From contig JAFYJN010000085.1 of assembly GCA_017538105.1 (NCBI GenBank), forward strand, positions 186,001 to 250,000: DNA of 64,000 nucleotides. The letters are read 5' to 3'. Source of the DNA: Prevotella sp. (GTDB lineage: Bacteria > Bacteroidota > Bacteroidia > Bacteroidales > Bacteroidaceae). The stretch's first letter is position 1, and every line of letters starts with the position of its first letter. The notes under the pieces are model-generated. The model was not told the DNA's origin. It ran no database searches and was given only the letters and a program-made list of their open reading frames with translations. Shown here piece after piece: positions 25,798 through 31,967 of this stretch. The position numbers were made by a program, and so were the translations under genes.

Positions 25798-27234
25798 TCA
25801 ATTATTATCCTCTTGCTGGTTACCATCAATCTCTTCGCCACGTTTGAGTCGTTCCACGAACTCGTCTATCTTGTGCAACTCGCGCGGTATACGTATGTTC
25901 TGCGGGCAGTGAGGCTCACATTGTCCACAGCCGATGCAGTGGTCTGCCTGACGGAGGCGAGGTACGGACCGATCGAGTCCAATGAGATATTGACGTCGAT
26001 ATTTGTCGTAATTTTCATCACGATTATCATTGGGTAGCGTACCTTCGTTCTTGCATTTGTTGTAATGCACGAAGATGGCCGGGATGTCGATGCCATAGGG
26101 ACAAGGCATGCAATACTTACAGTCGTTGCAAGGAATGGTTTCCACACCAACTATTTTTCTGGCTATCTCGTACAGGAAATCCTCATCCTCCTTGCTGACA
26201 GGTTGAAGAGGACAATAAGAGAGCAGGTTGTCCTTGAGATGTTCCATGTACGTCATGCCGCTGAGTACAGTGAGTACGCCTGCGGGAGTGCCGGCATAAC
26301 GAAAAGCCCAAGAAGCTGCGCTGTGCTCAGGGTCACGCGTTTTCAATTCCTTGACAAGGAACTGGGGCAGGTTCGACAACCGCCCACCGAGCAGTGGTTC
26401 CATGATGACCGCCGGTATTCCTCGTTTTTCCAGTTCACCATAAAGGTAACGAGCATCGGTATTGCTGTCATTTATCTCATTGGCGTAATCCCAATCCAAA
26501 TAATTCAGTTCTATCTGCACGAAGTCCCATTTATATTTGTCGTGTTGTGACAGCAGGTAGTCGAAAACCTCTATGGCCCCGTGGTATGAGAATCCAAGGT
26601 TTCTTATTTTCCCCTTTTTCCGTTCCTCTACCAGGAAGTCGAGCATACCGTTATCTATGTAACGACGATTGAGGTCATCCATCCCACTCCCCCCTATGGC
26701 ATGAAGGAGATAGTAATCAATATAGTCGACCTGTAGTTCCTTGAAGGAGTTGTGGTACAACTCCATCGCTCCTTCGCGAGTATGCGTTGCTGGGTCGAAA
26801 TTGGATAGTTTGGTCGCCACAAAGTACTTGTCGCGCGGGTGGCGGTGAAGGGCGATACCTGTTGATTTCTCCGACTGGCCCTGACAGTAAGCCGGTGACG
26901 TGTCGAAATAATTAACCCCGTGTTCTATCGCATAGTCAACGAGGCGGTTCACCTGTTCTTGGTCGATTTCCTCCTTACCTTCTCGTGCCGAGGCACCCCC
27001 CATTGTGGGAAGGCGCATCATGCCATAGCCCAGGAGCGACACTTTGTCGCCCGTTGTCGGGTTTGTGCGGAAGGTCATCTTTCCCAGAGGAGGTTCCACC
27101 TGGTTGACATATTCATTGCCTATGGCCCCTTCCGTTTTCTTGTCTTTGCATGCCACCAGCAATGCCGACGAGGCCACTGTACCTGTCCCTAACATTTGGA
27201 GGAAACGGCGCCGGTTGATATTTTTTTTGTTCAT
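25798..27234 (-). CDS. Tat-type lipoprotein aldo/keto reductase with C-terminal 2x[4Fe-4S] domain
   Basis: 478 residues. The N-terminus NRRRFLQMLGTGTVASSALLVAC combines a twin-arginine motif (residues 8-13) with a lipobox whose Cys is C29. The AKR barrel has the tetrad D111, Y116, K142 and H178 (FDTSPAY, VATKL, YYLLHAIGG). Near the C-terminus are CNDCKYCMPCPYGIDIP and CIGCGQCEPHCPQNIRIP, two Fe-S cluster sets. It is the last gene of the tatA-tatC-FeS operon. Export of a nucleotide-dependent AKR already folded with cofactors would explain the need for Tat; the electron donor is inferred to be the neighbouring Fe-S protein. Confidence 0.9.
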   Translation of the reverse strand: MNKKNINRRRFLQMLGTGTVASSALLVACKDKKTEGAIGNEYVNQVEPPLGKMTFRTNPTTGDKVSLLGYGMMRLPTMGGASAREGKEEIDQEQVNRLVDYAIEHGVNYFDTSPAYCQGQSEKSTGIALHRHPRDKYFVATKLSNFDPATHTREGAMELYHNSFKELQVDYIDYYLLHAIGGSGMDDLNRRYIDNGMLDFLVEERKKGKIRNLGFSYHGAIEVFDYLLSQHDKYKWDFVQIELNYLDWDYANEINDSNTDARYLYGELEKRGIPAVIMEPLLGGRLSNLPQFLVKELKTRDPEHSAASWAFRYAGTPAGVLTVLSGMTYMEHLKDNLLSYCPLQPVSKEDEDFLYEIARKIVGVETIPCNDCKYCMPCPYGIDIPAIFVHYNKCKNEGTLPNDNRDENYDKYRRQYLIGLDRSVPRLRQADHCIGCGQCEPHCPQNIRIPRELHKIDEFVERLKRGEEIDGNQQEDNN

Positions 27235-27308: not shown

Positions 27309-28814
27309 CTAAATAGTTCTATGTGCCTCGTGCCCTTCTACGAATATCGCAGAGAAAGGACGAGCCGGACACAAGTTTTCACAAGCACCGCATCCGATGC
27401 ATTTCTCCTCATTTACTACAGGTACCGTCACCGATTCCTCGTCTTCGGGATCGGAAGGCACCATCTCAATAGCTCCCGTGGGACAATGTCGAGCACAGTT
27501 TCCGCAGTCAACACCGTCGGTGATGGCTACGCAGTTCTTATGGATGGGAACGGCATGTCCTATCTGAATGGCCGATTTCTCCGCCTGGGTGATGGGCTGT
27601 ATGGCGCCCGTTGGACAAACCTCGGAACATGTCACGCACTCTGGCCGGCAGTATCCGCGCTCATATGACATAACGGGTTGCATAAGTGTCGACAATTCCG
27701 ACGAAGGACGCAGCACCTGATTAGGGCATTTCGACACACAGAGCTGGCATGCCGTGCATCGGCGAGCCATATTGTTGGCACTCCAAGATCCCGGTGGCGT
27801 GATAGGAGTCTGACGTTCGGGAGCCACTTTCTCCTCGATGACCGCCAGGCCACCGTCCACCTTCTTTTTCTCTTGCGCCAACACCGTTGTGGCTGCTGCA
27901 GCCGTAGCCAAGAGGAAGGCTCGTCGACCCTCGCCTACTCCATCATCCTGTTTTAACTCGGCGGCAACATCTTCCTTTTTCTTTTTGGTTGTCACCATGG
28001 GACCTGGAGCATAAGTCAATGCACCGAACGAGCATTTGTCGACACAATTACCACACACCACGCATCTGGAATAGTCGACCGTCATCGTCTTGTAGTCAAT
28101 ACATGCAGCCTTGCAATTCTTTGAGCACAAACCACATTGCTTGCATTTATCATCATTGAACCTCACCTTGAACCAAGAGAATCGGGCGAAGAATCCCAAC
28201 ACCGTACCTACCGGACAGATAGTGTTGCACCATGTGCGTCCATGTCTCCATGCCAGGTAGCCTATAATCAGGAACGATGCTATCGCAATGACGAAGGTTG
28301 TGATACTCTTTATCCACACATCGACATGATAAAAGGTATAGCTATCCATGCGTTCTGCTATACCCGCAAGTATGTTGTTTCCCAGCATCCACAACGGCTG
28401 CAGCAGGTTCTGCGCTATCCTGCCGAAAGTGCTGTAAGGCGCCAACAGAGCCACCAGTGCACCAATGCCTACAATGATGGCGACGACCATAACCGCCAGC
28501 ATCAGATATCGCAACCATGAGACGGCAGGCGAATAGGAAAACCTGTTTTTCTTTCTCTTGCCATGAACCCAAGATACTATATCCTGGAACACACCCAGCG
28601 GACAAATGACAGAACAATAAATCCTACCGAACACCAAAGAGAGCAGGACAAGTATGGCTATCACCACCACATTCACGGCCAGCACAGCAGGCAAGAATTG
28701 CACCTTAGCCATCCATCCAAGCCACGTATGTAGCGTCCCAGTAAAATCAAGCAGCATGAGTGTAATCAACGCGAAAAACACCACCGCCAAAAATCTTCTT
28801 GTTTTCTTTAACAT
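27309..28814 (-). CDS. Polytopic 4Fe-4S membrane protein (NapH-like) fused to an exported multi-cluster ferredoxin domain
   Basis: 501 residues. Residues 1-210 hold about five membrane helices with CSVICPLG (C67/C71) and CNTICPVG (C196/C200), the NapH/CcoG-like pattern. Two ferredoxin motifs follow (CKQCGLCSKNC, CVVCGNCVDKC, 224-261). Then comes a twin-arginine stretch GRRAFLLATAAAATTVLAQ (296-314) and a second half with four more clusters of Cys motifs (353-363, 389-400, 428-444, 472-482) resembling NapG/MauM. The protein probably passes electrons from the membrane to the periplasm. It lies between tatC (34-nt gap) and the Tat-lipoprotein AKR. Confidence 0.88.
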   Translation of the reverse strand: MLKKTRRFLAVVFFALITLMLLDFTGTLHTWLGWMAKVQFLPAVLAVNVVVIAILVLLSLVFGRIYCSVICPLGVFQDIVSWVHGKRKKNRFSYSPAVSWLRYLMLAVMVVAIIVGIGALVALLAPYSTFGRIAQNLLQPLWMLGNNILAGIAERMDSYTFYHVDVWIKSITTFVIAIASFLIIGYLAWRHGRTWCNTICPVGTVLGFFARFSWFKVRFNDDKCKQCGLCSKNCKAACIDYKTMTVDYSRCVVCGNCVDKCSFGALTYAPGPMVTTKKKKEDVAAELKQDDGVGEGRRAFLLATAAAATTVLAQEKKKVDGGLAVIEEKVAPERQTPITPPGSWSANNMARRCTACQLCVSKCPNQVLRPSSELSTLMQPVMSYERGYCRPECVTCSEVCPTGAIQPITQAEKSAIQIGHAVPIHKNCVAITDGVDCGNCARHCPTGAIEMVPSDPEDEESVTVPVVNEEKCIGCGACENLCPARPFSAIFVEGHEAHRTI

Positions 28815-28848: not shown

Positions 28849-29589
28849 TCACTTCACCACAAAGATGCTCAGTTCGTAGAGCAACCAGATGGGCAGCGAA
28901 ACAACGATGAGGGTAAACATGTCGACCGTAGGCGTAATAATCGCAGCCGCTATGAGTATTGCCACAATGGCGTGTCTTCGGTATTGTCTCATCATCTGCG
29001 CTGTAAGAACTCCCATTTTCCCAAGGCAGGCACAGAGCACGGGCAGTTCAAACACCAACCCCAGCACGATGGCCATCATGAAGAAAGCATCCATATACGA
29101 CTGTAGGGTGAGCATGTTGGCCACCTCTTCGCTCACTTGGTAAGTACCCAAAAAACGTACGGTGAGAGGAAACACCACAAAGTAGTTTACCAATGAGCCT
29201 ATGATGAACATCACATATGTCCATCCCAACGCTCTGACCACATATCGACGCTCTTTATCATAAAGCGCAGGAGCCACAAAGCCGAAGAGTTGATACAACA
29301 CATAAGGAGAGGTCACCACGAAACCGGCATAAAAAGCTGTCTTGAGGTGGGTCATGAACTGTTCGGCCAGTTGGGTATTCACCAATTGCAAAGAGAATGG
29401 TTCAGCCCCCATCCACCGATAGGTGATGAAATCACTCTTTGTAGGAGCGAGAACTACGGAAAACAATCCCTCTTTCCACAGAAAAGCCACACATGCCATG
29501 ACTGCCACGGCACCCACAATTCTGATAATCACCCATCTCAGCACTTCAAGGTGATCCCAGAAAGAGCCCACTGGGCTTTTTCCGTCCAT
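28849..29589 (-). CDS. tatC: Sec-independent protein translocase TatC
   Basis: 246 residues. The cytoplasmic N-terminus has FWDHLEVLRWVIIR (the conserved HLxELR region), six helices follow, and the Glu-Pro-FxL region reads GAEPFSLQLVN. FELPVLCACLGKMG marks the conserved helix 5 segment. TatC binds twin-arginine signals in the inner membrane. It starts 3 nt after tatA. Confidence 0.95.
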   Translation of the reverse strand: MDGKSPVGSFWDHLEVLRWVIIRIVGAVAVMACVAFLWKEGLFSVVLAPTKSDFITYRWMGAEPFSLQLVNTQLAEQFMTHLKTAFYAGFVVTSPYVLYQLFGFVAPALYDKERRYVVRALGWTYVMFIIGSLVNYFVVFPLTVRFLGTYQVSEEVANMLTLQSYMDAFFMMAIVLGLVFELPVLCACLGKMGVLTAQMMRQYRRHAIVAILIAAAIITPTVDMFTLIVVSLPIWLLYELSIFVVK

Positions 29590-29592
29590 CGG

Positions 29593-29817
29593 TCAGCTTT
29601 CTTTTTTTTCTTGTTCGGCATCTTCCTTGCCCTTTGAGGAAGGTTGCTCGTCCACGGAATCCAATTCGTTCATTCCTTCCTTGAAACTTTTCACACCCTT
29701 ACCCAACCCTTTCATCATCTCGGGAATTTTCTTTCCCCCAAAAAGGAGAAGAACAACCAGTGCGATGAGGACTATTTCGGGCATTCCCAATGAAAACAGC
29801 AGCATATTGTAAATCAT
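29593..29817 (-). CDS. tatA: Twin-arginine translocase subunit TatA
   Basis: 74 residues from [11 protein letters not shown]; Met4 of this form (29805) is an alternative start, and the frame further upstream is promoter DNA. One membrane helix ([23 protein letters not shown]), the FGxKKxPE hinge, an amphipathic helix ([19 protein letters not shown]) and an acidic tail. It forms the pore of the Tat system. No separate tatB is present, as is usual in minimal TatA-TatC systems. Confidence 0.93.
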
Positions 29818-30791: not shown

Positions 30792-31967
30792 ATGAGAAGA
30801 CGATTTAATGACCGTCAGGTCACATACATAGGCATCATCCTAGGCATTCTCATCACCGGTGGTATCGGTGGATTGTGGTACGCCGTCCGTCAGGTGAGCG
30901 ACAACCAGGCCCAGGAGGTTTTTGAGAAGGATTCACTGCGTGAAGCGAGCAAATTGCGCATGGTGGCCGAATATGCTGCTGAACAAGCCTTGCAGGATTC
31001 CATCGTGGAGTTTGAACGCACCCACTCATCACAGGCCATAGCCCACAGAATGCAGGTGATAGTGAGCCAAGAACTAAAGAAGAGCAGCATCAAACCTTAC
31101 GACCCACGTTACCGCACCGCTTCATTTCAGGAGTTGCTACAACAGTGCAAGACATTCGACCGCGACAGCGCGAAGAAAGGATGGCATTTCTACGACATCC
31201 CTTTCTATGAATATATCCCCAAAAAGGAGATTATTGGCTGTGAAATATCGCGTGTGTATTACGTAACAAACACCACAGCCTCCGCCGACGTGCGCTATGA
31301 CCTAAACAACGACAGTATCCCTTCGAAAAGTGCCGTCTACCGATTAGTATACGTGAATGACGAATGGTTGGTGGACGACTGTATCATCGATCAGGAGTCG
31401 GAACGTGAGAGCCTTCGTTGGTACATGGATGGCTACTACTTCATAGAACGCCCTGACACCACACAGGTGGACAGCACCATGAACGATGAGCGACGAGTTA
31501 CGGGCGATGAGCGAAAAACAAAGGGCACAGAGGAACCAACTAAGAAGACAGAAAGTAAGGGGCAAGGAACAGGGAGCAAGGAGCAAGCAAGTAAAAAAAC
31601 CGACACCAAAAAGGCGGAAACTAAGAAGTCCGACAGCAAACCCAAGACTGAAAGTAAGGGGCAAGGAGCAGGGAGCAAGGAGCAAGGAAGCAAAAAGTCC
31701 GAAACAAAAAAGGCGGAGACTAAGAAGTCGGACAGCAAACCCAAGACGGAAAGCAAGGGACAAGGAGCAGGGAGCAAGGAGCAAGGAAGCAAAAAGTCCG
31801 AAACAAAAAAGGCGGAGACTAAGAAGTCGGACAGCAAACCCAAGACGGAAAGCAAGGGACAAGGAACTGGGAGCAAGGAGCAAACAAGTAAAAAGTCCGA
31901 CAACAAGCCAAAGACCGAAACCAAGAAATCCGACAACAAGCCAAAGACAACCACCAAGAAACAATGA
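30792..31967 (+). CDS. Single-pass membrane protein with a tandem-repeat Lys-rich tail
   Basis: 391 residues. One N-terminal helix (YIGIILGILITGGIGGLWYA) after a basic start, a coiled region (35-100), then a folded domain (about 105-215) rich in Tyr and Asp. From about residue 230 to the end the protein is low-complexity Lys/Ser/Thr/Glu with a 33-residue repeat. The DNA at 31483-31530 that opens the tail resembles intergenic repeats elsewhere in the window. I recognise no domain. The last codon overlaps the next gene (ATGA at 31964). Confidence 0.8.
   Translation: MRRRFNDRQVTYIGIILGILITGGIGGLWYAVRQVSDNQAQEVFEKDSLREASKLRMVAEYAAEQALQDSIVEFERTHSSQAIAHRMQVIVSQELKKSSIKPYDPRYRTASFQELLQQCKTFDRDSAKKGWHFYDIPFYEYIPKKEIIGCEISRVYYVTNTTASADVRYDLNNDSIPSKSAVYRLVYVNDEWLVDDCIIDQESERESLRWYMDGYYFIERPDTTQVDSTMNDERRVTGDERKTKGTEEPTKKTESKGQGTGSKEQASKKTDTKKAETKKSDSKPKTESKGQGAGSKEQGSKKSETKKAETKKSDSKPKTESKGQGAGSKEQGSKKSETKKAETKKSDSKPKTESKGQGTGSKEQTSKKSDNKPKTETKKSDNKPKTTTKKQ
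31551..31947 (+). repeat. 99-bp tandem repeat inside a coding region
   Basis: Copies start at 31551, 31650, 31749 and 31848, exactly 99 bp apart; the last is partial and diverged. Copies 2 and 3 are almost identical. Each encodes 33 residues in frame, so copy-number change would alter only tail length. Confidence 0.9.

Follow-up and report, generated by a model that had tools for sequence, protein, structure and literature searches.

Bacteroidota polyferredoxins with a conserved internal twin-arginine motif: probable Sec-plus-Tat insertion and Tat-type partner proteins

Polyferredoxins of the NapH-NapG type and the Prevotella locus

A family of polytopic polyferredoxins was found by sequence by Tooke et al. 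in 2017 (PMC5449189), who called the protein from MLMS-1 a fusion of NapH with NapG and gave it as carrying three plus four clusters. According to that paper, fusions to MBP and AmiA demonstrated that this protein requires its twin arginines and the Tat system and that it is inserted into the membrane even without Tat, the hand-over being driven by a fifth segment of low hydrophobicity and by the charges behind it. The entries in the polyferredoxin table of the same paper come from Latescibacteria, Nitrospirae, Caldithrix, Thermoplasmatales, Anaerolinea, Anaeroarcus, and MLMS-1, with none from Bacteroidetes. A Sec-plus-Tat route is therefore already known for a NapH-NapG fusion: the mechanism proposed in the earlier note on the gene described here was right in kind, and its remark that the dual route was not known for such a fusion was wrong.

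A gene for a polyferredoxin (PFD) of this type is found in Prevotella sp., in the stretch of 64,000 nucleotides that was analyzed (referred to as the window). The features of the locus, in window coordinates, are as follows:

29593..29817, minus strand: tatA, 74 aa counted from the ATG (profile matches)
28849..29589, minus strand: tatC, 246 aa (PF00902, 219.6 bits; TIGR00945 above the cut-off)
27309..28814, minus strand: PFD, NapH-NapG-type fusion, 501 aa (translation, Pfam, NCBIfam)
27990..28814, minus strand: NapH-like half and start of the linker, residues 1-275
27921..27926, minus strand: twin-arginine codons, R297 and R298 (translation and homolog alignment)
27876..27920, minus strand: weakly hydrophobic h-region, residues 299-313, inside a stretch of pLDDT <50
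27873..27878, minus strand: A313-Q314, candidate signal peptidase I site (motif counts and Q-rule paper)
27312..27875, minus strand: NapG-like half, residues 314-501, with 16 invariant Cys residues corresponding to four clusters
25798..27234, minus strand: aldo/keto reductase-ferredoxin (AKR), with the Tat motif NRRRFL and the lipobox LVAC29

The four genes form a same-strand run, tatA-tatC-PFD-AKR, with gaps of 3 nt (tatA/tatC), 34 nt (tatC/PFD), and 74 nt (PFD/AKR); tatA and tatC are thus directly upstream, as the earlier note had stated. Its description of the protein (NapH-like helices, ferredoxin motifs, an RR within residues 296-314, and a four-cluster second half) is likewise borne out by the translation and by the Pfam and NCBIfam alignments. 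The NapH-like half contains four hydrophobic helices (residues ∼8-26, 44-62, 106-124, and 166-184), CX3CP motifs at C67/C71 and C196/C200, and two ferredoxin clusters (C224-C261); the linker holds the motif GRRAFLL, residues 296-314 being GRRAFLLATAAAATTVLAQ. Pfam recognizes two Fer4_5 (NapH-type) stretches and several Fer4 families. The NCBIfam models of NapH and NapG align with residues 49-267 (74.9 bits, below the cut-off of 213.05) and 293-490 (74.5 bits, below the cut-off of 269), respectively, so the PFD is NapH-NapG-like and a member of neither equivalog. Across 112 full-length homologs, each of the 12 cluster Cys residues before the RR and the 16 behind it is conserved in all sequences or all but one, and a further Cys, C238, in 103; as judged from the sequences, these 12 + 16 residues would suffice for three plus four clusters. 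No further nap genes were recognized by eye in the ORF list for the 22-34 kb region of the window. A separate ORF, at 30792-31967, carries four copies of a 99-bp tandem repeat (31545-31948) coding for a Lys/Ser/Glu-rich tail.

Homologs were collected from 121 genomes of the window's family and from 296 genomes of the phylum, and 120 stretches were fetched from these two samples, including 22 of the 25 long PFD matches found outside the family. They were supplemented by the best 80 of 436 confirmed relatives (the named loci), a set that leans toward close relatives and comes from Prevotella, Bacteroides, Phocaeicola, Parabacteroides, Odoribacter, Muribaculum, Dysgonomonas, and other genera. The pooled motif set consists of the 112 full-length proteins and the 80 named loci, i.e., 192 sequences, 185 of them distinct, in which organisms overlap and relatives are counted singly; the motif counts were made without fragments of <430 aa (10 of 122 rows). 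Linker and signal columns were removed before the FastTree tree was computed.

The twin-arginine motif and the segment behind it

The earlier note had staked its proposal of Sec plus Tat insertion beforehand on the conservation of the RR pair. In the corresponding column, the 185 distinct homologs carry RR in 135 cases, KR in 46, and LR in 4, i.e., [RK]R in 181, which, from the alignments, is more conservation than chance would give; the second Arg is invariant in an alignment of 43 sequences. The RR/KR state requires 20 changes on the tree. Among the 150 AKR-type pairs (here and in the locus counts, this means those that are not DUF362-type; see below), the motifs of PFD and partner are RR/RR in 118, KR/RR in 27, and LR/RR in 3, with the partner unparsed in 2. 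The 30 DUF362-type pairs comprise 18 of KR/RR, 10 of RR/RR, one of RR with an unparsed partner, and one scored by the script as RR/KR; the partner motif in locus L143 reads RK. The free partner in the PFD loci keeps RR, while the tethered PFD varies between RR and KR. As reported in PMC1182353, SufI is exported, at a slower rate, with Lys in place of either Arg, and TtrB has a natural Lys. KR in the PFD could be tolerated because a substrate already tethered at the membrane might get by with a weaker signal. Tethering may thus relax the Tat signal, and the drift in the PFD, set against the fixed RR of its free partner, offers a natural test of this effect on Tat recognition. The four LR variants (L094, L097, L099, and L201) have an otherwise intact signal; the first three come from one genus, in genomes with TatC.

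Two other arrangements were encountered in the fetched loci. Five of these (L123-L125, L127, and L128) encode proteins of ∼280-330 aa with two hydrophobic stretches, as seen by eye, followed by an RR and a NapG-like half; in their helix arrangement these match the actinobacterial Rieske protein, and, judged by sequence, they are candidate Sec/Tat proteins. In L123, the gene for this protein is followed by AKR, tatA, and tatC. In another locus (L114:6001-7514, minus strand), the PFD is encoded in two overlapping frames split at the linker, which could be genuine or due to an error in the sequence.

The stretch behind the RR has a mean Kyte-Doolittle value of 0.97, compared with 2.3-2.7 for the four PFD helices (a Hessa scale was used as well). 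It comprises a median of 15 uncharged residues (n = 112), which is short for a membrane span, and is followed within 14 residues by at least one Lys or Arg in 109 of the 112 proteins. A weakly hydrophobic fifth segment with charges after it is what Tooke et al. describe for their polyferredoxins. Because this weak hydrophobicity and these charges are conserved together with [RK]R and the cluster Cys residues, and by analogy with the relative for which the route has been shown in print (PMC5449189), the PFD of the window is probably inserted by Sec and Tat. In this respect the proposal of the earlier note fits the evidence; that the last hydrophobic stretch remains as a helix is doubtful.

There is nearly an even chance that, along this same Sec-plus-Tat route, the RR stretch serves as a cleavable internal Tat signal, with signal peptidase I cutting between A313 and Q314; a soluble or partner-bound NapG-like ferredoxin would then be freed from the NapH-like membrane part, and one gene would give two proteins. 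The shortness of the uncharged stretch argues for this, as does the AlphaFold2 model (43-sequence alignment; mean pLDDT 83.9, pTM 0.78), in which pLDDT is ≥70 over the greater part of each half and drops below 50 at residues 275-283 and 285-321. The homology to NapG starts at residue 293, so the fusion retained the NapG-type signal. At A313-Q314, where the h-region ends, Gln is preceded by a small residue, as is the rule among substrates of signal peptidase I in Bacteroidetes; >60% of the substrates predicted in Porphyromonas gingivalis have Gln after the site (PMC5837995). Ala-Gln is found 12-22 residues behind the second Arg in 156 of the 185 homologs, whereas 500 shuffles, which ignore kinship (Ala-Gln requires 18 changes on the tree), averaged 20.9 such cases and reached no more than 35; it is present in 15 of the 30 DUF362-type PFDs despite their different linkers. 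However, the KKVDGG motif behind Ala-Gln is also conserved within the AKR clade, so shared descent explains part of this sharing. Furthermore, the searched text of the two papers on the Gln rule does not mention Tat, the two Tat-type AKR paralogs of the window's genome lack Gln at the site, and the 30 DUF362 partners have Ala-Gln in 1 case and Ser/Thr-Gln in 5 within the stretch looked at. The MLMS-1 fusion, joined at residue 364, past the predicted TMD5 (338-359), is reported to have migrated near full size (PMC5449189). Should the signal be cut, the PFD would be a natural case of a polytopic protein that is inserted by Sec, passed to Tat, and then split.

Partner proteins and TatC

Nearly all Bacteroidota PFD genes adjoin a gene for one of two Tat-type partners, an AKR-ferredoxin lipoprotein or a DUF362 protein. 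A same-strand AKR-ferredoxin gene lies within 400 nt of the PFD gene in 80 of the 84 non-DUF362 family loci (window included); of the four that fail this test, two (L052 and L114) have AKR, one (L103) ends with the contig, and one (L082) has none. AKR-ferredoxin is also present in 78 of the 80 named loci (the best 80 of 436). In the 30 DUF362-type loci (8 from the family and 22 from other families of the phylum), the DUF362 protein is encoded beside the PFD in every case and almost always carries an RR-type signal at its N terminus; Pfam confirmed DUF362 in all five partners scanned. A single change on the tree (support 87) divides the AKR type from the DUF362 type, and the same two pairings appear in the public annotation of two plasmid records. 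Three loci with a complete PFD (L082, L186, and L202) have neither partner within the fetched stretch.

The signal of the AKR partner contains RR in 156 of 161 cases, and the lipobox Cys (Cys29) is found in 155 of 159 sequences, an RR followed by a lipobox Cys being the mark of a Tat-exported lipoprotein. The catalytic Asp, Tyr, Lys, and His residues (D111, Y116, K142, and H178 in the window) are kept in all 159, the eight ferredoxin Cys residues, likewise present in the window protein, in 158-159, and four residues of a putative NADP-site motif in 157-159 of 159. A literature search brought up no paper on the AKR-ferredoxin partner. In the window's genome, TIGR01409 has four matches above its cut-off: the AKR of the window, two AKR-ferredoxin paralogs, and a GldH-like lipoprotein. 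The paralogs (G000 contig C5:130137-131468, L233, and C56:4787-6115, L232) have RR signals with ends that resemble signal peptidase I sites rather than a lipobox. The GldH-like protein (L231:3200-3937, minus strand) scores as a Tat signal through TTRRRVLAAL, which is probably a chance match.

Among the 121 family genomes, 88 have both PFD and TatC, 1 has PFD without TatC, 13 have TatC without PFD, and 19 have neither (Fisher p = 8.8e-13, kinship ignored; the PFD-positive class was read by hand from the search table and includes fragments). The sole PFD-positive genome without detected TatC is 84% complete, and its PFD bears RR. A whole-genome search of the 32 PFD-negative genomes found AKR-ferredoxin (E ≤ 1e-20) in two, both TatC-positive; 11 of the 13 TatC-positive PFD-negative genomes are without it. 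In the phylum sample, TatC is present in 295 of the 296 genomes and PFD in 32 (E ≤ 1e-12; some matches are weak or partial, and the search, which scored five candidates per genome, may miss some). With TatC nearly general and PFD in about one genome in ten, TatC does not predict PFD outside the family. Linkage of PFD to tat, to which the earlier note also pointed, is common and always on the same strand in the non-DUF362 family loci, but it is not general: tatC lies within the stretch in 40 of these 84 loci (13 upstream, 27 downstream), and in 2 of the 30 DUF362-type loci. Such linkage is found in 38 of the 80 named loci (the best 80 of 436). The other 44 family loci have tatC outside the stretch; 29 of the 83 fetched stretches of this type are shortened by contig ends. 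In several loci, genes for DUF1893 and a 170-aa membrane protein lie between AKR and tatA.

The anatomy of the PFD and its conservation, the pairing with Tat-type partners, and the co-occurrence with TatC are best explained, and in our judgment quite likely so, if the PFD is a Sec-then-Tat membrane polyferredoxin feeding a Tat-exported AKR-ferredoxin, which would act outside the cytoplasm as the reductase of a carbonyl compound. Insertion by Sec would place the four NapH-like helices in the membrane and keep the RR signal on its cytoplasmic side, together with two ferredoxin clusters. On this side the NapG-like half would load its four clusters; the neighboring TatAC would then transport it across the membrane. 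Electrons, most likely from menaquinol, would pass from the NapH-like clusters to the periplasmic NapG-like ones and on to those of the AKR lipoprotein, itself exported by Tat with NADP pre-bound. The quinol donor and the carbonyl substrate are suggested by analogy; we also infer the direction of electron flow and the NADP bound to AKR. The LR variants (three in TatC-bearing genomes), the three loci without either partner, the RR-bearing PFD in a genome without TatC, the 44 loci with tatC outside the stretch, and the scores below both NCBIfam cut-offs speak against this explanation. A bolder version, which we advance tentatively, is that the Bacteroidota PFD is a polyprotein with a Sec-anchored NapH part and an internal, relaxed [RK]R Tat signal that the tethered substrate presents to TatC, whose folded NapG part is exported and released by the Ala|Gln cut of signal peptidase I, and that the two resulting subunits form, with the AKR-ferredoxin, a carbonyl reductase that is driven by quinol, loaded with its cofactor, and located outside the cytoplasm.

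It is unlikely that the linkage with tat and AKR merely reflects a neighborhood shared by descent and that the PFD serves another periplasmic enzyme. The two additional AKR-ferredoxin paralogs elsewhere in the same genome would agree with this, as would the loci with tatC outside the stretch or with neither partner, but tatC is on the same strand whether upstream or downstream, AKR-ferredoxin is missing from 30 of the 32 PFD-negative genomes, and the DUF362 clade has the same kind of pairing with a different Tat-type partner. A cytosolic NapG-like half, with the RR arising by chance in a flexible linker and the PFD serving a cytosolic AKR, could accommodate ferredoxin clusters in both halves and the LR variants in TatC-bearing genomes, but is very unlikely given the joint conservation of [RK]R, the weak hydrophobic stretch, and the following charges, the Tat signal and lipobox of the AKR itself, and the co-occurrence of PFD with TatC. 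For the Sec-then-Tat polyferredoxin paired with AKR, the pairing leads to a hypothesis on the purpose of Tat in gut Bacteroidales, namely, the export of AKR-ferredoxins, which, in the window's genome, make up all the TIGR01409 matches above the cut-off besides the GldH-like protein.

Comparison with known systems

The closest described protein is the MLMS-1 polyferredoxin (Q1NSB0) with its homologs, which, going by the published description (PMC5449189), shares with the Bacteroidota PFD the NapH-NapG fusion, the Sec-inserted helices, the twin arginines ahead of a weak fifth segment with charges after it, and the three plus four clusters. Unlike in that description, the fifth segment of the Bacteroidota PFD is ∼15 uncharged residues followed by Ala-Gln, and KR is frequent; the pairing with AKR-ferredoxin or DUF362 has no counterpart in that account, of which partners are not a topic. 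Separate NapH and NapG, the quinol dehydrogenase of nitrate respiration, show these two parts and this order as well, with the RR on the NapG part, whereas the PFD is a single polypeptide that scores below both NCBIfam cut-offs. The actinobacterial Rieske protein (Sco2149) likewise has Sec helices first, an RR before a last weak segment, and an exported Fe-S domain, but its cofactor domain is unrelated and its helices are arranged as 2 + 1. FbcH, the cytochrome b/c1 polyprotein of Bradyrhizobium, is cut at an internal signal peptide to give two respiratory proteins, and its route is that of Sec and cytochrome c. The PFD, if cleaved, would resemble FbcH in having an internal signal peptide and two products, except that FbcH is not known to involve Tat. 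What the 185 distinct Bacteroidota homologs appear to add to these systems is the RR/KR drift, the Tat-type partners, the co-occurrence with TatC, and a possible cleavage site.
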